DNA of 20,157 nucleotides. Source: a virus. The position numbers were made by a program, and so were the translations under genes. The notes under the pieces are model-generated. The model was given only the letters and a program-made list of their open reading frames with translations. It was not told where the DNA came from and made no database searches. Location of the stretch: positions 1 to 20,157 of the IMG/VR virus record IMGVR_UViG_3300007542_000271. One strand, written 5' to 3'. Of the stretch, positions 5,454-17,744 are shown piece by piece (the first letter of the stretch is position 1; each line of letters starts with the position of its first letter).

Positions 5454-5481
5454 TTGACAAGGTAAAACATACCGATATAAC
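5454..5481 (+). promoter_or_regulatory. Sigma70-like promoter ahead of the capsid gene
   Basis: A perfect -35 box TTGACA (5454-5459) is followed, after 16 bases, by TATAAC (5476-5481), five of six bases of the -10 consensus. It starts four bases after the scaffold stop and lies in the longest non-coding stretch of the window. Transcription would begin near 5488, giving a leader of about 220 nt before the capsid ATG. It implies that host RNA polymerase gives the capsid gene its own, extra supply of transcript. Confidence 0.6.
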
Positions 5482-5484
5482 TAA

Positions 5485-5684
5485 GAGCAGATAGCTTCGA
5501 CCTCTTCGTGACACTCCTAGCTATCTGTTTCCCTTAAAATTAAAAGTCTAAACCATTCGCTAAGACTCACCTAATTGAGTACAGGCCTGGTGCATACTTC
5601 GAGCATAACAGATCCTTATGCTGCAAATATGAACCACACCCCGGAAATGTTAGCCTCTTATCTGGATGTTTAGCTTCTCATCCA
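5485..5684 (+). promoter_or_regulatory. Structured 5' leader of the capsid mRNA (three hairpins)
   Basis: The 260-base gap 5451-5710 holds no supported gene. After the promoter come three stem-loops. (1) CAGATAGCT 5488-5496 pairs with AGCTATCTG 5519-5527 (9 bp, extendable by A-U and G-U pairs), with a 3-bp inner hairpin CGA/TCG in the loop. (2) AGCATAA 5602-5608 pairs with TTATGCT 5616-5622. (3) TGGATG 5663-5668 pairs with CATCCA 5679-5684, ending 14 bases before the Shine-Dalgarno. Only the first has T-rich sequence behind it (TTTCCCTT), too weak for a clear terminator. An RNA-stability element, a processing site or translational control of the capsid gene are all possible. Confidence 0.45.
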
Positions 5685-5697
5685 AGCCAAATATCTT

Positions 5698-5703
5698 AGG
5701 AGG
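5698..5703 (+). promoter_or_regulatory. Strong ribosome binding site fixing the capsid start at 5711
   Basis: AGGAGG lies seven bases before ATG 5711. An in-frame ATG at 5666 would add 15 residues (starting MFSFSSKP) but lies inside hairpin 3 of the leader and has no Shine-Dalgarno, so 5711 is preferred. Confidence 0.85.
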
Positions 5704-5710
5704 ATTTCTC

Positions 5711-6784
5711 ATGGCTTTCCAAACTGCTGCTGGCTGGTCGAACCTGCCCAACGGTAACTTCTCTTCGGTCATCTACTCGAAGAAAGTCCAACTCGCTTTC
5801 CGTAAGGCCACCGTTGTTGGTGATATTACGAACTCCGACTACTTCGGTGAAATCTCCGCTCAGGGCGACACTGTTCGCATCATCAAAGAGCCGGAAATCT
5901 CGGTGTCGGCTTACGCTCGTGGCACTCAGATCCAAGCACAAGACCTCGACGATGAGGACTTCTCGCTGGTTATCGACAAGGCCAACTACTTCGCGTTCAA
6001 GACTGACGACATCGAAGTTGCTCACTCGCATGTGAACTTCATGGACTTGGCTACGAACCGTGCTGCCTACCGTCTGGCAGACCAGCATGACCAAGAAGTT
6101 CTGGGCTACCTGTCGGGCTTCAAGCAGTCGGCTCTGCACACCAATGCAGACACCATCAACGACATCGTGAATGGTACGAAAGCTATCACCACGGCTGGTT
6201 CGGATGAACTGCTGACTTCGATGAAGCTGAAGAAGGGTTCGTTCGGGAACATCACCACGGCTTCGGCTGGTGAGCACTCGATCCCTGTGGCTGCTCGTCT
6301 GCCGGGTGCAACTGCCCTGCCGACCGAGTACGTCTCGCCTGTCATGCTCATCAACCGTATGGGCCGTCTGCTGGACCAACAGCGTGTGGACAAAGCTAAC
6401 CGTTGGTTGGTGATTGACCCCGTCATGATGGAAGTCCTGATGGATGAAGACTCGCGCTTCCTGAATGCAGACTTCGGTGACTCGGGTGCTCTGCGTAACG
6501 GTCTGGTTCTGAACAACTGGAACGGCTTCCGTGTCTACATCTCGAACAACCTGCCTTCGGTTGGTACTGGCCCTGCAACCACTGGTGTTGCTAACCAGAA
6601 CGACAACTACGGTGTGATTGTTGCTGGTCATGACTCGGCAGTTGCTACCGCTGAACAGATCAACAAAACCGAGACGTACCGTGACCCGGACTCGTTTGCT
6701 GACATCGTTCGTGGTATGCACCTGTATGGTCGTAAGATCCTGCGCCCGGAAGCACTGACGGTTGCAAAGTACAACCTCGCCTAA
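5711..6784 (+). CDS. Major capsid protein
   Basis: This is the main shell protein, expected to have the HK97-type fold. The product is 357 residues from ATG 5711 (start MAFQTAAGWSNLPNG), chosen because of the AGGAGG site. Early segments such as GDITNSDYFGEISAQGDTVR and the region LVIDPVMMEVLMDEDSRFLN (about residues 235-255) match capsid proteins of podovirus type as I know them. Context agrees: scaffold just upstream, tail adaptor downstream. Codon use is unlike most of the window: 21 of 24 serines are TCG and most leucines are CTG, with GC content clearly higher, as expected of the most abundant virion protein. It has its own promoter and leader, and a hairpin terminator follows. The bias also leaves a 374-codon open frame on the opposite strand, which is an artefact. 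Confidence 0.92.
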   Translation: MAFQTAAGWSNLPNGNFSSVIYSKKVQLAFRKATVVGDITNSDYFGEISAQGDTVRIIKEPEISVSAYARGTQIQAQDLDDEDFSLVIDKANYFAFKTDDIEVAHSHVNFMDLATNRAAYRLADQHDQEVLGYLSGFKQSALHTNADTINDIVNGTKAITTAGSDELLTSMKLKKGSFGNITTASAGEHSIPVAARLPGATALPTEYVSPVMLINRMGRLLDQQRVDKANRWLVIDPVMMEVLMDEDSRFLNADFGDSGALRNGLVLNNWNGFRVYISNNLPSVGTGPATTGVANQNDNYGVIVAGHDSAVATAEQINKTETYRDPDSFADIVRGMHLYGRKILRPEALTVAKYNLA

Positions 6785-6800
6785 TTGGTAGGTGAACTCA

Positions 6801-6827
6801 GGGTGTCCCTTCGGGGGCACCTTTCTC
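6801..6827 (+). terminator. Rho-independent terminator after the capsid gene
   Basis: GGTGTCCC (6802-6809) pairs with GGGGCACC (6814-6821), including one G-U pair, closed by a TTCG tetraloop on a C-G pair, an especially stable arrangement. It is followed by TTTCTCT. It lies 17 bases after the capsid stop. The T-tract is interrupted, so partial read-through to the next gene is likely. Confidence 0.75.
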
Positions 6828-6856
6828 TGCCATAATTTCTAGGAAAGGATTCTGAT

Positions 6857-7264
6857 ATGGCTATCTCTCAATCGCTGCGTAATCGCGCAATCGTAATCGA
6901 AAAGTACGTCACTCTGGCTGCTACCGCTGGCACTAACGTGGGCGTCTCTGTCCCCGCTGGTACGCTGATCCTGGCAGCTGGTGTTGAAGTCCTGCAAGCT
7001 GTCCCTGATGTCTCGGTCTATACGGCTGACGTGACGGATGGTACGACCGTGTTCGCTAATGATGTGTCCCTGGACGCTGCTGCCAAAGGTACGATCCGTG
7101 TGGGTACGACTGCAGGCTTCATTGCTGCTGCTGACACTGTTGACGTTGTGACCACTATTACTGGTTCGCCGGGTACTATCAAAGCTCGTGTGTTCGTCGT
7201 TGCCGTTAATCTGAATGACTCGGTGTACGAAGCAGCTGAAGTTGATCGTGACCTGCTGGCATAA
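6857..7264 (+). CDS. Probable capsid decoration/stabilising protein, 135 aa
   Basis: This is a small protein rich in Val, Ala, Thr and Gly, with alternating hydrophobic residues suggesting mostly beta-strands, and no cysteine. No family is recognised with certainty. The case for a decoration (cement) or other high-copy head protein is contextual. It lies directly after the capsid gene, has a good ribosome site (AGGAAAGGA), and shares the capsid gene's unusual codon bias (all nine leucines are CTG). It is also framed by two hairpin terminators. High-copy need is the simplest explanation of that bias. A head-fibre base or a major tail component are alternatives. Confidence 0.55.
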   Translation: MAISQSLRNRAIVIEKYVTLAATAGTNVGVSVPAGTLILAAGVEVLQAVPDVSVYTADVTDGTTVFANDVSLDAAAKGTIRVGTTAGFIAAADTVDVVTTITGSPGTIKARVFVVAVNLNDSVYEAAEVDRDLLA

Positions 7265-7274
7265 TAACTAACTT

Positions 7275-7303
7275 AAGGGGGCTGTCTGTAGCCCCCTTCT
7301 GCT
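7275..7303 (+). terminator. Rho-independent terminator
   Basis: AAGGGGGCT (7275-7283) pairs perfectly with AGCCCCCTT (7290-7298), loop GTCTGT, followed by CTGCTTT. It is a 9-bp, GC-rich stem located 10 bases after the stop of the 135-residue gene. The T-tract is poor, so it may attenuate rather than stop transcription into the tail genes. The stem could also protect the 3' end of the capsid-region mRNA. Confidence 0.7.
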
Positions 7304-9567: not shown

Positions 9568-11628
9568 ATGACAGGATACGTTCGCCAAGCTGCTGCGGAT
9601 ATTGTTCCTACAGCTGTTGTGAGATCTGCCCCAGTCAACTCTGAGTTCAACGCAATCCGCGATGCCTTCTCTGCGAGTACTGGTCACAGACACGATGGTT
9701 CTACTGCAGAGGGCACTTACGTACCCTTGATTGCGGATGCAGACGCCAGAAACAAGGTGGTTGTAAATACTACAGACAATCGCGTAGAGCTTTATGTTGA
9801 AGTCTCTGCGACCCCTGTTGCCCAAGTGTACATTCAGGATGGAGTTCTCCTCCCTGTCGTTGATAATGATATTGATCTTGGGTCTTCCAGCCTTGAGTTC
9901 AAAAACTTGTTCATTGACGGCACCGCAAAGATTGACACCCTGACTGTCGATGAGAATGCTGTGATTGCTGGCACCCTTAATGTTGTTGGCCTGTCAACCC
10001 TTGCTTCTGTTGCTGTTAGTGGCGGTACAATCAATAATGCGGTTATCGGAGGTACAACCCCCCAAGCTATCACTGGCACCCTTGTTACTGCTACCACAGG
10101 TTTCTCTGGAACCCTTACTGGTAACGTCACAGGCAATCTTACTGGTAACGTCACAGGCAATCTTACTGGTAACGTCACAGGCAATGTCGCAGGCAATGTC
10201 ACTGCGTCCAGTGGTTCGAGCACTTTTACTGATGTTACAATCAACGGCTCCCTGAACATGAACAGTGGTAGTGCGGGCACCGTAACGGGACTCTCTGCAC
10301 CTGTAAATGGCACGGATGCAGCCACTAAGACTTATGTTGATACTGCAGATGACCTCAAGCTAAACCTCTCTGGTGGCACCATGAGTGGCGCTATTGCTAT
10401 GGGCACCAATAAAATCACAGGTCTGGGGACCCCTACAAGCACTGCAGACGCTGCCACTAAGGGTTACGTTGATACCACTGTTGCAAGTCTAATTGATTCT
10501 GCTCCAGGTACTCTTGACACCTTAAACGAGCTTGCTGCTGCTCTTGGGGACGACCCTAACTTTGCCACAACGACGGCCACTTCTATTGCGGCTAAAGTCT
10601 CTAAGGCTGGGGACACCTTGACAGGTGACCTGGTTATGGGTTCAAACAAAGTCACCTCAACGTCAACCCCCACAACTGAGGACACGCTTACCCGTAAGGG
10701 CTATGTTGATACTCAGGTCACTACCCGACTACCCCTCTCTGGTGGCACCATGAGTGGCGCTATTGCTATGGGGACAAGCAAGATTACTGGCGTAGGCGAT
10801 CCTACATCCAATCAAGATGCTGCTACTAAGTTTTACGTAGATGACCAAGGTGCTACCAAATTGAACCTCTCTGGGGGTACAATGACAGGTAACATCTCAA
10901 TGGGGGCAAACAAAGTCACATCCACTGCTACGCCTACTGTAGCTGATGACTTAACACGTAAGGGTTATGTTGATAGTATTCTAGGGAGTGCAACATCTGC
11001 TGCTGCTAGTGCGGCTGCTGCTGCTACGTCTGAAACTAATGCTGCAGGGAGTGCATCTTCTGCTCTGACCAGTGCAAACAATGCTGCAGCCTCTTTCGAT
11101 AGTTTTGATGATAGGTACCTTGGAGCTAAGGCATCTGCACCCTCTGTCGATAACGACGGGAATGCGCTCCTGTCGGGTGCAATCTACTGGAACACGGAAA
11201 GTACGCAGTTTTTTGTTTGGACAGGTTCTGTTTGGAGCGCCGCAGTTTTTGTTATAGATGACACCGTAGTGACCCTCACGGGCACTCAAACGCTCACTAA
11301 TAAAACACTGACTGCATATAGAGAAACCGTTGGGACTGTCACCTCAAGCACTGTTGACCTGTCTACAGGCACTGTGTTCTCGGATACACCCGCCACTGAT
11401 CCGACATACGTCTTCAGCAATCCACCTACCTCTGGTACCGCCACGGGTTTCACACTCAAAATTACGCCGTCTGCTACAGTGACAATCACTTGGCCTATTT
11501 CAGTTGACTGGCCGAACGCTTCGGCACCTGCAGCACCTGCAAGTGGTACAACCAGCGTCTTTGTGTTCTATACCCAAGATGGTGGCACGACTTATTATGG
11601 TTTTGTTTCTGGCGAGGGTATGGCATGA
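9568..11628 (+). CDS. Tail fibre protein with repeats, 686 aa
   Basis: This is an elongated host-contact fibre, expected to be trimeric. Domains: residues 1-70, probable virion-attachment part with the HxHDG motif at 40-44; about 90-180, beta-repeat shaft ([17 protein letters not shown]); 183-212, tetrapeptide [L/V]TGN/VAGN repeats encoded by a 24-bp tandem repeat; about 230-470, four copies of the tail-fibre module that begins LSGGTMSG, runs through MGTNKIT and ends near DAATKGYVD; about 471-511, Ala/Ser-rich coiled coil; about 513-555, the FDDRYLGAK unit ending in [14 protein letters not shown]; about 570-686, beta-rich tip with [14 protein letters not shown] and a C-terminal [15 protein letters not shown] segment, all common in phage fibres. 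AGGAGG lies nine bases before the ATG. It overlaps the next gene by ATGA. Confidence 0.88.
10114..10185 (+). repeat. 24-bp perfect tandem repeat, three copies, in the fibre gene
   Basis: Units 10114-10137, 10138-10161 and 10162-10185 are identical and each encodes LTGNVTGN; a half-unit variant (VAGN) follows at 10186-10197. Perfect identity at DNA level indicates recent slippage or duplication. Confidence 0.9.
10365..10772 (+). repeat. 39-bp exact direct repeat within fibre modules
   Basis: Positions 10365-10403 and 10734-10772 are identical over 39 bases, 369 bases apart (123 codons, in frame). They encode the [13 protein letters not shown] part of two of the four fibre modules. An in-frame deletion or duplication between them would preserve the reading frame. 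Confidence 0.85.
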
Positions 11629-13067
11629 GTGGGATAGCTCGACGCCTGATGGCCACCCCAATGAGAGAGCCTATGGAGCTGGTGTTTAACACGGCTCTTG
11701 GTGATACCACGATTGAAATCCCATTCGGTAGCTCTACTGTCGTAAACGTTGAGGTGGATTGGGGTGATGGGACTTCGGACACCTACACGACTAACGGCAC
11801 CAAGACCCATACCTATGCTTCGGGGGGTATCTATAATGTTTCTATACAAGGGTACCTGTCACAATTTGGCGCCACTGCAACACTTAATCGCCCGGAACTT
11901 ACTGGGTGTTTGTCGTTCGGTACCCTTGGTTTGACAAGTCTTGGGGGTGCGTTTCGTGATTGTATTAACCTGACGGAAGTACCTGAAAAAATACCCTCTT
12001 CTGTTACGAGCATGACTTCTATGTTCTCTGGGGCTACCTCTTTCAACCAAGATATCGGTTCTTGGGATACATCTTCTGTTACGAGTATGTCTGGTATGCT
12101 CTCGGGGGCTACCTCTTTTAACCAAAACATTGGTTCTTGGGATACATCTTCCGTTACGAGTATGTCTTTTATGTTCTCTGGGGCTACCTCTTTCAACCAA
12201 AACATTGGTTCTTGGGATACATCTTCTGTTTTCACTATGTTTGCTATGTTCTCTGGGGCTACCTCTTTTAACCAAGATATCGGCTCTTGGGATACATCTT
12301 CTGTTACGAGTATGACTTCTATGTTAGAGAATGCTACAGCCTTTAATCAAGACCTTACGGGTTGGTGTGTTGGTAACTTTGGGTCCGAACCCACCAGTTT
12401 CGCTGGTGGGACATCAGGCCTAAGTGTAGGCAACAAACCAGTCTGGGGCACCTGCCCATTGTACGTTGCCGATGGCTCGATTACCTACATTGGGGAGGCC
12501 ACAGGAACGTCGAGTGCCACACTACCTCCGCATCAGTCCGGGGACCTCATCCTCGCTTTTGCGTTCCGAGACGGGTCAACAACACTTCCGACGCAACCCT
12601 CCGGCTGGAGCTTTCTGGATGGGACCGGAGCCAACTCTTGCGCAGGACGGGTGTCTTACAAAGTTGCGACATCCGATAGCGAAACCACAGGCACCTGGAC
12701 AAATGCTACAACTGTTATTTTTCTTATTTATCGTGGTGTGAATCTTGGAAACCCCCTAAGTCTCTCCAACAGAAGCACAGGTTCGAGCACCACCGTCAAC
12801 TACAACACCAACGCCTTCTGGCAGGGGCTCTCTCGTCTGCTTACTTTCGCAGGACACCGGAGCACTAACACCGCACTTGAAACACCTCCGGGGACACTAA
12901 CGTTAATCGTGAACGCTGTGGATGCCTCTGATGAGGCTGCTGCCTTCCACTCTACCGTTGATAATTTTGGAGATTGGGCCAGCACAAATGTATCTGTTGG
13001 AGGTACGTCTTCTGGCTGGATCACTTTCACGCTTCGCCTTCGTGTCCCCATAACTCCAGCCCCGTAA
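11625..13067 (+). CDS. Host-recognition protein with BspA-like leucine-rich repeats, 480 aa
   Basis: Probably a tail adhesin. Residues 1-20 (MSGIARRLM) are a short lead; about 20-85 form a PKD-like beta domain with [11 protein letters not shown] and [12 protein letters not shown]; about 100-132 enter the repeat solenoid ([13 protein letters not shown]). Residues 133-232 are four 25-residue repeats of the DUF285/BspA type (core [19 protein letters not shown]), followed by a capping half-repeat ending GWCV and the closing KPVWGTCP. About 280-480 is a separate beta-rich domain ([20 protein letters not shown]) of the kind found at phage tail tips. No signal peptide. The ATG overlaps the fibre stop (ATGA) and the next gene is a fibre chaperone, so a role in the tail is likely. 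GC content rises in the C-terminal part, suggesting module exchange. Confidence 0.75.
12021..12368 (+). repeat. 75-bp tandem repeats encoding leucine-rich repeats
   Basis: Units start at 12021, 12096, 12171 and 12246, each exactly 75 bases (25 codons, all beginning with ATG), with a divergent fifth from 12321. Neighbouring units differ at only a few bases outside the variable last codons. There are no gaps, so copy number can change without loss of frame. Confidence 0.9.
12390..12410 (+). other. Perfect 8-bp hairpin inside the adhesin gene
   Basis: CCCACCAG (12390-12397) pairs with CTGGTGGG (12403-12410), loop TTTCG. No T-tract follows, so it is not a terminator. It sits between the last leucine-rich repeat and the GC-richer C-terminal domain. 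Confidence 0.55.
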
Positions 13068-13565: not shown

Positions 13566-16500
13566 ATGAATTTTACCCCGCAACAGCAACACAACCTCTT
13601 GTCAAAGATGGGATATGACGGGCCTGCTAACCCTAAGATGATGGATGCTTTCGTGTCGTCCAACCCAGGTGCCGCTGCAAGAATGGGGAAGTTTAATCGT
13701 GCTCTTCAAAAGAGGGCTGGTGCTCCTATGGGTATGGCTGTAGGGGGTTCTGTCGGGGTCACCTACAGGCTTATTCAGACGGACCAAGGTAACTATCGTC
13801 TCATTGACTCTACGGGTAAGGTTATTGAGAGTGGTTCTAAGTCCGATAAAGATCGTCTTACTGAAAAGATGAATAGCCTTAATAACCCTTCGGCTAACAC
13901 AGGTGCAGCTTCTGGTACTGCTGCAGGTGATACTTCTGGTGCAGCTTCAGGTACTACTGCAGGTGATACTTCTGGTACTGCCCTTTCGCCGGGTTCGCAG
14001 ATGAACCAGAAAACTATTAATGACCCTAAGGACATTTCTGTAAAAAATGCACCTAAAAAGGGTACTGACCTTTCGCCGGGTTCGCAGATGACCCAGAACA
14101 TTATTAATGACCCTACTGGACTGGCGACGAAGCCTGAAGTAGAAGACATTTCTGTAAAAAATGCACCTAAAACCATTATTGGGGAGGATGAAGGTCAAGC
14201 TCAAGAGACTGCACCTGCAGGCACTACCGCTGTAAAAAATGTGTCTACTGCCGCTGCTCCTACGCCTACCCCTGCAAGCCTGATTGATGCAGCTATGGTT
14301 ACCCCTGGAGTGACTGGGGTCGTAGATGACCTTGAAGCTGCTACAGGTACTGTCTCTGATAAAGTTACAGCTCAGACTATGAACCCTGAGAAGCTGGCTT
14401 CCTTGGGTCTCCCTGCAGCAGAGATTGAAAAAATCCGTAAGGTACTGGACACTGGGGACCTTGAGATTACCCCTGAGCAATTGGCAGAGGCTGCTACCTT
14501 GGCTAGTCAAGGGATGTCTTTGCCTCAAGCAGTGGCTAAGGTCACTAAACAAGATTTTGAAGCTATTGCAGCTAAGTTTAAGGGGGCTACCCCAGAGGCA
14601 GAAGCTGTTACTGAGTACGACACGACAGGTATGGGTGTTGCTCAAAGAGATGTCTCTGATGAAGAGCTTGCTAGAGTAGCAGGGTTGAATGCAGAGGCTG
14701 AACAAGCAAAAGCTGCTCAATCCTTGTTTGAAGCTAAGGCAAGGTTTGCAGAAGGTAAGATTACACCTAAGCAACTGGCTGATGCTCAAACTGAATATGA
14801 TAATATTGTCACAAAAATTGCTAAAGGTACTGTTGGCGAGAAAGAGCTTATCAAAGGACAAGGTGCAGGGCTTACAGCTGAACAAGCTGGTGAGGTTGAG
14901 GCAACCTACGATGATAGCTTAGAAGCTGCACAAGGGAAAGTTAAGAAGGGGGAGATTGTAGATGCCAACACTGCGTATGACCTTCCTCCCACAGAGTCTG
15001 CAACCCTTAATAATACTGTCGTCCAAGGGGCAGCTAAAGCTGGTGACATCCCTAGTGCTGAAGCTGCTGCAGCAATCTACGCCCAAACTTTGGCAGCTGC
15101 TAAAGGCAACGTAGGTGCAAACGAACTGGTTGATGCAAAGGACGTAGTTAAAGTTGCAGAAGCTGTAGAGGCTGTTGCTGCCACTATGGATGCACTCAAT
15201 GCTGCCTCTGTGATGCAGGCCAGCCAAGGTACGCTTTCTCAGGCAGCCCTTGCTCAAGCTCAACTGGGTCAAGTACCTGTATCTGCTACTGTTGCAGGTC
15301 AAATGACGACCTTGATGGAGCAGTTTAATAATGGTACCCCAGCTTGGGCTGCAGGTGCTATGAGGGCTGCAAACGCAGCTATGGCGGCAAGAGGTCTTGG
15401 TGGATCTTCTATGGCTGCAGCAGCTATTATACAGGCTGCGATGGAATCTGCTCTCCCTATTGCTGGGGCAGATGCTCAAGCTTTCATGCAAATGGAAATG
15501 GGCAACCTTGACCGTCTTCAACAAGTCTCTCTGGCGAATGCTGCTGCACAACAAAACATTACGTTGGCTAACCTCAGCAACCAGCAACAGGCTGCCTTGC
15601 AGAATAGTTCCAACTCCTTTGCCTTGCAATCTCAAAGCCTTTCTAACCAACAATCTGTAATCTTGGCCAACGCACAGATCAAAGCTGCACAGCAAGGCCA
15701 AGTCCTTGAGGTCACTGCACAGGCTGCTTTGGCTAACGCTGCTCGGTATGCCGAAGTCAATAACATCAACTTGACCAACAAACAACAGGCACTTCTGCAA
15801 AGAAGCAGCCAAAGTCTTCAAGTCGATCTGGCCAACTTGGATTCGACACAACAAACTGCTTTGGCTAACCTGCAAGTCCAGGCTGCCCTTCGTGGTCAAG
15901 AGCTATCTAATGAACAGCAAGTGGCAATGCTTACCTCGACACAAGCTTTCCAAGCTGCAGAGTTTGATGCGACTGCTGAACAGCAAGCTTTGCTGCAAGA
16001 TGCCTCTGCTCGTCTGGCTATGGAGGGTAAGGTCATGGATATTAATCAGCAGACCTCTCTCTTCAATGCAAGCCGCGTCGCCCAGGTCAATGATGTCAAC
16101 TTGAGCAATGCCCAACAAGTCCTCCTGCAAAGGAGTGCTGAAAACCTGCAAGTGGATATGGCAAACCTTTCTGCTAAAACCCAAACAGGTTTGGCTAATG
16201 CTCAACTTCGAGCTGCCCTCCAAGGTAAGATCTTGGATAACAAGCAGCAAGCAGCTGTGTTGAATGCTGAACGGTATGCTGAAGTAAACAATCTTAACCT
16301 TTCAAACAGACAACAAGCCTTTCTTCAAGACGCAAACATTCGTGCAGCCCTTGAAGGTAAAGTCTTGGATAACAAGCAACAAGCTGAACTATATAACGTT
16401 TCTCGTATTGCTGAAGTTCAAGATATTAACATCACAAACGAACAACAAGCTTTGATCCTGAAAAGCACTCAAGCTTTTGATGTAGATATGGAGAACACTA

Positions 16501-17744
16501 GCAACAGGCAGCAGACAGCTCTTGCTAATGCTCAACTTAGAGCTTCCCTCCAAGGTAAGGTCTTGGATAACAAGCAACAGGTGGCTTTGATTAATGCTGA
16601 ACGGTATGCTGAAGTAAACAATATCAACCTTAGCAACCAGCAACAAGCTTTTGTACAAGATTTTGTAGCCAAAACCACTATGGAAGGCAAAGTCCTAGAT
16701 AACAAGCAACAAACTGCGATCTTCAATGTAGCAAACAAGCTGGAAGAGCGTCAGATTAACCTCAGCAATGAGCAGCAGACTCGTCTCTTCAATATGACTA
16801 ATAACGTCACTGTTGAGATGACCAACCTCTCCAACAGACAACAAACTGCTTTGGCTAATGCTCAGATCGAAGCCTCTCTCCGGGGTCAAGAGTTGACTAA
16901 CATCCAGCAGACTGGGGTTCTTAATGCTGCCCGTATCAGTGAGGTGGCCAACATCAACTTTACTGCAGACCAGCAAAGAGCTTTGGAGAATGCCCAACTA
17001 GCACAAACGGTAGACTTGGCTAACTTGAACTCTCGCTCTGCAAAGGTGCTTGCTGACGCTGCTGCAATGGCCAACATGGATATGGCAAACCTAAACAACA
17101 GACAGCAATCCCAAGTCCAGAACGCTCAGAACTTCCTGCAGATGGACTTGGCTAACTTGGATAATGAGCAACAGACTGAACTGTTTGCTTCTCAAGCTAT
17201 GATCAACTCCCTCTTGTCCGATCAGGCTGCGACCAATGCTGCCTCTCAGTTCAATGCTGCAAGTGAAAACCAAGTCAATCAGTTCTTTGCTGACATGGCA
17301 TCTAACGTCTCTCAGTTTAACGCTTCTCAACAGAATGCTATCAAGCAGTTTAACTCTGGGGAAGCTAACGCGACAGAACGTTTCAACACTCAGTTGGAGG
17401 CTGCCAGGTCTCAGTTCAATGCTACCAACAGCTTGGTCATTGCACAAGCAAATGCTCAGTGGCGACAGAACACTTATACCCTGAATACTGCGGCACAGAA
17501 CGAAGCTAATATGGAACTGGCAAGAACTGAAAACGCTTTGACTGTAAAAGCCCTTGACCAGATCTGGCAGCGGGAACGAGATACAATGTCTTATGTTTTC
17601 TCTTCTTTGGAGAGGGACGAAGACCGTGCACTTGAACTCCTTCTTTCAGATAAAAGAGATGATTTGGCAAAGTGGACTGAAGGTCAGGCAGAGGATGCAG
17701 CAAAAACCGCACTCCTTGTACGTGCTCTCTTTGGAGGTTGGTAA
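13566..17744 (+). CDS. Giant repeat-rod virion protein, 1392 aa
   Basis: Function is not known; this is a structural or ejected virion protein by context. Parts: 1-65, helical start with AVGGSV at 58-63; 100-205, low-complexity Gly/Ala/Ser/Thr with two duplicated segments (LSPGSQM and DISVKNAPK, each twice); about 230-590, Ala/Glu-rich helices; about 595-640, WAAGAMRAANAAMAARGLGG and following residues, a segment I recall from other marine phage proteins; 647-1218, 26 consecutive 22-residue repeats without a gap; 1229-1316, eight 11-residue repeats mostly starting FN; then a charged helical end finishing ALFGGW. The repeat region has few prolines and no cysteine and is probably a very long helical rod. 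GGAG lies before the ATG and the stop overlaps the next start (TAATG). It could be an inner-core or ejection protein, or an external whisker. Confidence 0.8.
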   Translation: MNFTPQQQHNLLSKMGYDGPANPKMMDAFVSSNPGAAARMGKFNRALQKRAGAPMGMAVGGSVGVTYRLIQTDQGNYRLIDSTGKVIESGSKSDKDRLTEKMNSLNNPSANTGAASGTAAGDTSGAASGTTAGDTSGTALSPGSQMNQKTINDPKDISVKNAPKKGTDLSPGSQMTQNIINDPTGLATKPEVEDISVKNAPKTIIGEDEGQAQETAPAGTTAVKNVSTAAAPTPTPASLIDAAMVTPGVTGVVDDLEAATGTVSDKVTAQTMNPEKLASLGLPAAEIEKIRKVLDTGDLEITPEQLAEAATLASQGMSLPQAVAKVTKQDFEAIAAKFKGATPEAEAVTEYDTTGMGVAQRDVSDEELARVAGLNAEAEQAKAAQSLFEAKARFAEGKITPKQLADAQTEYDNIVTKIAKGTVGEKELIKGQGAGLTAEQAGEVEATYDDSLEAAQGKVKKGEIVDANTAYDLPPTESATLNNTVVQGAAKAGDIPSAEAAAAIYAQTLAAAKGNVGANELVDAKDVVKVAEAVEAVAATMDALNAASVMQASQGTLSQAALAQAQLGQVPVSATVAGQMTTLMEQFNNGTPAWAAGAMRAANAAMAARGLGGSSMAAAAIIQAAMESALPIAGADAQAFMQMEMGNLDRLQQVSLANAAAQQNITLANLSNQQQAALQNSSNSFALQSQSLSNQQSVILANAQIKAAQQGQVLEVTAQAALANAARYAEVNNINLTNKQQALLQRSSQSLQVDLANLDSTQQTALANLQVQAALRGQELSNEQQVAMLTSTQAFQAAEFDATAEQQALLQDASARLAMEGKVMDINQQTSLFNASRVAQVNDVNLSNAQQVLLQRSAENLQVDMANLSAKTQTGLANAQLRAALQGKILDNKQQAAVLNAERYAEVNNLNLSNRQQAFLQDANIRAALEGKVLDNKQQAELYNVSRIAEVQDINITNEQQALILKSTQAFDVDMENTSNRQQTALANAQLRASLQGKVLDNKQQVALINAERYAEVNNINLSNQQQAFVQDFVAKTTMEGKVLDNKQQTAIFNVANKLEERQINLSNEQQTRLFNMTNNVTVEMTNLSNRQQTALANAQIEASLRGQELTNIQQTGVLNAARISEVANINFTADQQRALENAQLAQTVDLANLNSRSAKVLADAAAMANMDMANLNNRQQSQVQNAQNFLQMDLANLDNEQQTELFASQAMINSLLSDQAATNAASQFNAASENQVNQFFADMASNVSQFNASQQNAIKQFNSGEANATERFNTQLEAARSQFNATNSLVIAQANAQWRQNTYTLNTAAQNEANMELARTENALTVKALDQIWQRERDTMSYVFSSLERDEDRALELLLSDKRDDLAKWTEGQAEDAAKTALLVRALFGGW
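13902..13973 (+). repeat. 36-bp tandem repeat, two copies
   Basis: 13902-13937 and 13938-13973 encode GAASGTAAGDTS and GAASGTTAGDTS and differ at two bases. They are part of the disordered linker near the N-terminus of the 1392-residue protein. Confidence 0.85.
13983..14172 (+). repeat. Duplicated linker segment with two exact direct repeats
   Basis: A 22-base element is exactly repeated at 13983-14004 and 14070-14091 (LSPGSQM), and a 28-base element at 14031-14058 and 14145-14172 (DISVKNAPK). The order A-B-A-B shows one duplication of the block, with an extra 28-base insertion in the second copy. Confidence 0.85.
15504..17219 (+). repeat. 26 tandem 66-bp units (22-residue repeats), with 330-bp super-repeat
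   Basis: The protein frame reads as 26 successive blocks of exactly 22 residues with no insertion or deletion. First-half consensus is NLSNxQQxALx; the second half begins NA and often ends GK, GQ or NNI. Blocks five apart are most alike: 6, 11, 16 and 21 share TALANAQLRA-like cores, and 12 and 17 share LNAERYAEVNN. At DNA level a 30-base stretch at 16263-16292 recurs exactly at 16593-16622, 330 bases later. The array thus grew by duplication of five-unit (110-residue) blocks. Confidence 0.92.
17250..17513 (+). repeat. Eight 33-bp units (11-residue repeats)
   Basis: Directly after the 22-residue array come eight blocks of 11 residues, e.g. FNASQQNAIKQ, FNSGEANATER and FNTQLEAARSQ. The first six begin with Phe and seven of eight have Asn in position 2. 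The unit is half the length of the preceding repeat, supporting an underlying 11-residue helical period. Confidence 0.8.
17733..17737 (+). promoter_or_regulatory. Ribosome binding site deciding the hydrolase start
   Basis: GGAGG ends six bases before ATG 17744. A TTG at 17738 in the same frame lies immediately behind this site, too close to be used, so ATG 17744 (two codons later) is the better start. The site overlaps codons of the upstream gene. Confidence 0.75.

Follow-up and report, generated by a model that had tools for sequence, protein, structure and literature searches.

Introduction

HMO-2011-type phages have been described as a dominant group with a broad distribution in the ocean (PMC9038755), and many of their virion proteins are still unnamed. 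In other phages, according to Lucks et al. 2008 (PMC2266997), head genes make elevated use of host-preferred codons, and their codon set stands apart from that of the rest of the genome. For phage GP4, the description of the virion (PMC9698820) gives 540 copies of the capsid protein and as many of the cement protein, the latter arranged as 180 trimers on the shell.

Here we describe a locus in which the major capsid protein (MCP) gene and the gene behind it, which we call g135, share one strongly biased codon set. The window, by which we mean the whole stretch of DNA analysed, is an entire IMG/VR virus record of 20,157 bases. The two genes are:

5711..6784, plus strand: major capsid protein (MCP), 357 aa; PHROG 267 major head protein (E 2e-60), Pfam Phage_capsid_4, identity to the CRP-13 coat protein, codon bias
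6857..7264, plus strand: g135, predicted capsid cement (decoration) protein, 135 aa; MCP-like bias, structural model with pLDDT 88, matches to cement proteins

The codon bias of this pair is an expected case of the effect described for head genes (PMC2266997), with the differences that two genes only are involved here and that the codon set was compared between relatives rather than with a host table. What is new is the predicted separate transcription unit of the two genes, its promoter, its leader RNA and its terminator-like hairpins; searches of the open-licence literature on the leader, on HMO-2011 proteomics and decoration, and on codon bias of capsid and decoration genes listed no report of the leader or of the g135 family.

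Taken as a whole, these features are best explained, with a probability that we put at about 0.85, by a high-output late capsid-cement unit at 5454-7298 with translational selection acting on both genes. In an HMO-2011-type podophage, this stretch would serve as a late transcription unit dedicated to high output, in which a near-consensus sigma70-like promoter would drive an mRNA that opens with a structured leader of about 230 nt, encodes g135 behind MCP and stops at a terminator-like hairpin. g135 would be a jelly-roll/Ig-like cement protein bound to the outside of an HK97-type shell, probably as trimers and with a copy number close to that of MCP. We infer that the mRNA and both proteins are abundant and that the shared codons are those preferred by the host. 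Very high translation rates, needed for both genes, are proposed as the reason why the two share a codon set, since such rates would expose them to the same translational selection. Codon bias, fold and transcription signals together thus name a probable cement family in HMO-2011, CRP-345, phiM6 and many uncultured relatives, and they suggest codon bias as a proteomics-free way of recognizing virion proteins of high copy number.

The window and its relatives

Judged by its genes, the window reads as part of an HMO-2011-type podophage genome: its capsid, adaptor, SU10-type portal and further structural genes group it with these phages, and its MCP is 85% identical to the coat protein of Roseobacter phage CRP-13 and 71% identical to that of HMO-2011. 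Homologous capsid, portal, scaffold-like and adaptor genes occur in the same order as in the window in HMO-2011, CRP-1, -9, -13, -345 and Sinorhizobium phage phiM6, and the promoter and leader RNA are likewise found in HMO-2011 and the four CRP phages just named. Proteins of the g135 family are encoded at the HMO-2011 locus (phage1322_46) and in CRP-345 (gp57). In contrast to the window, CRP-1, -9, -13, -212, -235, -603 and -738 carry no cement-family gene in the parts examined; relatives without the gene in those parts are listed as L101, L105, L107, L109, L110 and L113.

Relatives were gathered as 20 loci through a search with the g135 protein and at least 80 loci, a sample, through a search with the capsid protein, to which 15 annotated phage records were added. 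For host assignment, a capsid-alignment scan of metagenome-assembled bins placed nine loci in bins of unlike bacteria and archaea, with identical contigs occurring in two bins, and therefore no host could be named. Elsewhere in the window, behind the fibre gene, a 480-aa protein (11625-13067) carries repeats that we take to resemble BspA-type repeats, and a 1392-aa protein (13566-17744) contains many imperfect repeats around NLSNRQQTALANAQ.

Codon usage of the capsid and g135 genes

TCG encodes 21 of 24 serines and CTG 22 of 28 leucines in the MCP gene, and g135 uses CTG for all nine leucines and TCG for four of seven serines; in the remaining 13 genes of the window, the figures are 36/462 for TCG and 63/457 for CTG (Fisher tests: MCP, TCG p=1e-18 and CTG p=3e-13; g135, CTG p=3e-8 and TCG p=0.0013). 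An earlier note, made from the letters of this DNA, had described the two genes as an island of extreme bias, and its serine and leucine counts all hold. Codon analysis of all genes of the window placed the island far beyond chance and found it common to no other gene. The effective number of codons (ENC) was 34.9 for MCP and 33.8 for g135 vs 45.9-54.8 for the other genes. A G statistic against the other genes' usage gave z=32.8 for MCP and z=9.5 for g135, with other genes at z≤5.3 except the 1392-aa gene (z=9.1), which hardly deviates toward the MCP set. When MCP-likeness was evaluated by a likelihood test, g135 scored z=8.4, a value reached by 0/2000 simulations and equal to 92% of the level expected for a draw from MCP usage; every other gene of the window had z≤2.8.

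The bias extends beyond serine and leucine. With these two amino acids left out, the MCP-likeness of g135 is still z=5.5, and AGA, AGG, CGA, CGG, GGA, ATA, TTA, CTA, TCA, AGT and AGC are used zero times in either gene. Within g135 the bias is uneven, AAC accounting for only 1/5 and GAC for 6/10 of the respective codons. That the island arose from local mutational bias or GC content instead of selection is hardly credible: GC3 is indeed raised in the capsid gene (0.65 vs about 0.43 in the rest), as this account would have it, but g135 reaches only 0.50, GCG is nearly absent, and relatives hold unbiased genes inside the island. The MCP bias is also other than plain GC bias, because the gene prefers C in two-codon boxes and isoleucine (TTC/TAC/AAC/GAC/ATC) but T for alanine, glycine and arginine (GCT/GGT/CGT).

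On the minus strand, a 374-aa antisense ORF (5696-6820) spans the MCP gene in codon register with it. This frame is open because the MCP gene lacks TTA, CTA and TCA codons, and it was dropped as a candidate gene, being a by-product of the codon bias.

Codon bias across relatives

Up to four ORFs per locus between the capsid gene and the adaptor gene were kept and clustered, yielding 154 slot ORFs. One family, to which g135 belongs, comprises 81 of them (132-178 aa) and has a median z of 5.6 and a minimum of 0.4; for the other slot clusters, among them HNH-like, fibre-like and unassigned genes, the median z ranges from -4.4 to 3.9 and in most is close to 0 or negative. In a first set of 76 loci, which left out loci with a capsid gene shorter than 900 nt or less than 3000 nt of other genes, the family gene was the most MCP-like gene in 72 (10.4 expected), and the median MCP-level bias was 76% for the family gene and 6% for other genes. 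Ranking by z instead of by fraction put the family gene first in only 45/76, because z grows with gene length. The TCG and CTG fractions of the family gene in this set track those of the capsid gene at the same locus (rho 0.80 and 0.87), and C-ending Phe/Tyr/Ile/Asn codons stand above those of the neighbours in the capsid gene at 75/75 loci and in the family gene at 62/75.

A second set was picked by the leader RNA motif alone and comprised at least 80 loci, 53 of them testable for codon bias. Among the matches listed, the family gene was most MCP-like in 49 of the 53 (8.9 expected), although the codon-set figures of both sets are not independent trials, because the loci are related and at least two contigs (L129, L138) occur in both; L002, in addition, repeats the window's genes. 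The TCG and CTG correlations were weaker here (0.31 and 0.35), with only two TCG-type loci among the matches listed. Exceptions in which the family gene is not the most MCP-like number 4/76 in the first set and 4/53 in the second, and at L187, one of the two TCG-type loci of the second set, the capsid gene is TCG-type (0.57) and the family gene is not (0.10).

These comparisons bear on whether the codon usage of the MCP and g135 genes is that of a donor, a phage of another host from which both came in one recent transfer. Joint acquisition from another phage had been raised by the earlier note itself, and the adjacency of the two genes and their single usage, differing from the rest, would fit it. 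We consider it very improbable. The shared bias recurs in relatives with different codon sets, the family-gene TCG fraction having a median of 0.57 in 29 TCG-type loci and 0.00 in 45 TCG-poor loci; in L014 and L015, which encode 70-71% identical g135 proteins, neither gene contains a single TCG or CTG codon. Divergence is also unequal, as the capsid protein of L024 is 89% and its slot protein 28% identical to that of the window, and in L005 an unrelated 143-aa gene between MCP and g135 is unbiased (z=-1.2) next to a g135 gene with z=10.3. Taken singly, L014, L015 and L005 are the strongest examples.

The bias follows function rather than position or joint inheritance. It exceeds base composition and is common to genes expected to be highly expressed, the pattern by which translational selection is recognized. 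The proposal of selection for very high translation, made before from the two genes of the window, is thereby supported by a bias that tracks a gene family, shifts with the capsid codon set and coincides with a predicted dedicated promoter-leader-terminator unit.

HNH-like genes, recognized by eye, lie between the capsid and cement genes in eight loci (L005 1560-1991, L006 6360-6791, L036 9301-9735, L037 2391-2810 and others); their codons are unbiased and they are probably mobile. Behind the cement gene, two small families, slot cluster 6 (e.g. L005 2492-2863, median z 3.9) and slot cluster 1 (e.g. L029 5954-6391, median z 2.7), show intermediate capsid-like bias and are possibly further virion proteins of middling copy number.

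A predicted cement protein behind the capsid gene

Searches of Pfam and PHROG with g135 matched no family, and a PHROG search with 61 family members returned three weak matches to an unnamed PHROG and one to a 'virion structural protein' PHROG. We report structural models of two family members: the AlphaFold2 model of g135, built with 61 members in the alignment, has a pLDDT of 88.3, and that of a 163-aa relative (28% identical) 84.2. Both are predicted as the jelly-roll/Ig-like beta-sandwich of about 120-160 aa by which podophage cement proteins are known, and, as is also usual for such proteins, in most relatives the family gene immediately follows the capsid gene.

In the Foldseek and VIA-align results, the top rows for g135 were the cement proteins of KHP30 (Z 11.9), Pam1 (10.8), KHP40 (10.4) and GP4 (10.1), followed by that of BPP-1 (8.6), and the Foldseek search of the PDB gave g135 no match reaching E 0.001 (best 1.5e-3). 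The 163-aa relative presents the cement-protein picture more clearly than g135, with Z of 13.2 for GP4 (E 6.6e-5), 12.3 for Pam1, 11.3 for KHP30 and 9.6 for KHP40, falling to 7.5 below the fifth row. The likeness to the cement proteins of GP4 (gp1), Pam1, KHP30/KHP40 and BPP-1 lies in predicted fold and size; phmmer and profile searches of the PDB with g135 matched no solved cement protein convincingly by sequence, and the structural alignments show 9-18% identity. Gene order offers a further parallel, since the GP4 cement gene adjoins the HK97-fold capsid gene (gp1/gp2) as g135 adjoins MCP, and an equal copy number would be expected.

An abundant g135 might instead be a jelly-roll component of the tail or fibre, or a late protein outside the virion. 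The R4C tail protein 8gtc is among the top rows with an equally good match (Z 10.4 for g135 and 9.3 for the relative), and many viral and lectin-like proteins have the jelly-roll fold, which is a common one. However, g135 is encoded directly behind the capsid gene, in what appears to be one transcription unit with it; the adaptor gene comes afterwards, and the fibre genes lie at a distance. For each of the two family members, capsid cement proteins make up four of the top five structural rows, and a capsid-level codon bias would fit hundreds rather than tens of copies per virion. A non-cement role is thus unlikely in our estimation. The suggestion of the earlier note that the small protein could be a capsid decoration protein gains support from the structure comparison, and the models favour a g135 role like that of the GP4 cement protein. 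The g135 family is probably a new family of capsid cement proteins.

A predicted capsid-cement transcription unit

MCP and g135 are predicted to form a separate transcription unit that has a conserved promoter of sigma70 type, some 230 nt of leader and hairpins resembling terminators:

5454..5481, plus strand: sigma70-like promoter TTGACA-N16-TATAAC, identified by conservation between loci
5698..5703, plus strand: AGGAGG Shine-Dalgarno sequence of the capsid gene, read from the sequence and conserved
6801..6822, plus strand: 9-bp hairpin with a TTCG loop between the capsid and g135 genes (spacer fold -27.4 kcal/mol)
7275..7298, plus strand: terminator-like hairpin closing the unit, conserved 3' of the family gene

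The promoter and hairpin assignments rest on conservation between loci and not on generic scans. A generic promoter scan returned 20 sites vs 18.5 in shuffled sequence and did not list the capsid promoter, because the scan requires the second hexamer to have T at its position 6; a generic terminator scan returned 19 sites vs 18.4, with neither hairpin of the unit among them. Between loci, an exact TTGACA-N15-18-TATAAC is present in 93/105 capsid leaders, 221-325 nt upstream of the start codon, and 95 such sites lie near a capsid gene vs four elsewhere in 1.34 Mb. Both hexamers are invariant in 18/18 aligned leaders.

The spacer between MCP and g135 measures 55-100 nt in 20 loci, the window included, and folds into a hairpin (median -22.2 kcal/mol). 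A strong hairpin follows the family gene in 79/80 loci, as against 8/54 for portal, 15/104 for scaffold-like, 4/81 for adaptor and 8/68 for 515-aa genes and 14/348 for random positions; one also follows the capsid gene in 24/32 loci that are absent from the slot family list; the family does occur in some of these. The hairpins of the window have no clean T tract, and the one between the MCP and g135 genes could lower g135 output.

A structured leader RNA before the capsid gene

About 230 nt separate the promoter from the MCP start codon, and three elements stand out in this leader:

5485..5530, plus strand: leader hairpin P1, just 3' of the predicted transcription start; RNAfold, conserved pairing
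5569..5641, plus strand: core of the structured leader RNA (model R1); R1 match of 33.6 bits, E 1.7e-8, covariation
5651..5659, plus strand: near-invariant AGCCTCTT block; AGCC invariant in 48 rows (A6)

The leader is a structure at the predicted transcript start: a 5' hairpin is followed by a second helix, which covaries strongly and has a mostly palindromic loop. Across leaders with a CC/CUAC internal-loop signature (40 distinct stems from 184 leaders), the P1 arms pair at 0.72 of positions vs 0.52 (sd 0.025) with shuffled partners. For the second helix, 89.2% of cells pair in alignment A4, on which the pairs themselves were predicted and whose 55 distinct sequences were taken from 64 candidates chosen by conserved ends and similar length. 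In this alignment 182 cells are changed on both sides (60.2 in the shuffled controls), and covariation scores 0.651 vs 0.204 when shuffled (reached in 0/500 shuffles) and at most 0.133 with partners slid.

In 97 of 100 sources, most of which also helped to build the model, a plus-strand copy of R1 lies immediately ahead of the capsid gene; this equals 97/98 testable loci, since two of the three sources without a copy, L008 and L083, do not contain the region, leaving L075 as a true miss. The model scores in HMO-2011, CRP-1, -9, -13 and -345, with weaker scores in CRP-603 and CRP-235. Viral contigs scanned with the motif gave at least 80 loci; the capsid gene comes next in 79 of the 80 matches listed, and the promoter is present in 72/75 of those listed with enough sequence. 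The match at L149 has neither capsid gene nor promoter and looks like a chance match.

Rfam 15 gave no gathering-level match in the window, and no match at E≤1 with the leaders of the window and L043. Conserved, covarying, placed before the capsid gene and absent from Rfam, the leader RNA is the larger surprise of this locus, and its role is directly testable because it is present in phages that can be grown (HMO-2011, CRP-1, -9, -13, -345). We would give even odds to its being a new class of regulatory RNA in HMO-2011-type phages that sets capsid and cement output. Possible actions include put-like anti-termination through the hairpins of the unit, protection of the mRNA 5' end, and a switch at the ribosome-binding site controlling ribosome access. 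As described for HK022, putRNA is likewise a structured RNA of about 70 nt near a phage transcript start with terminators downstream (PMC9378689), with the differences that the window's leader is longer and precedes a late gene; this likeness by description serves as a lead only.

The AGCCTCTT block, too invariant to show covariation, may pair with the Shine-Dalgarno sequence; the block could also be read as boxA-like. In most relatives, the apical loop of the leader core holds the palindrome GGCC, GCGC or GATC, and a 4-nt palindrome is found in 95/109 distinct arms vs 49 with shuffled loop letters, the sequences being related. A kissing-loop dimer formed through this loop is offered as an idea only. 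In ctYwJ313 (MW202701.1, L103 19206-20001), an inserted gene annotated as an HNH endonuclease separates the capsid promoter from the capsid gene, and the leader core found ahead of the capsid gene reaches only E 0.06.
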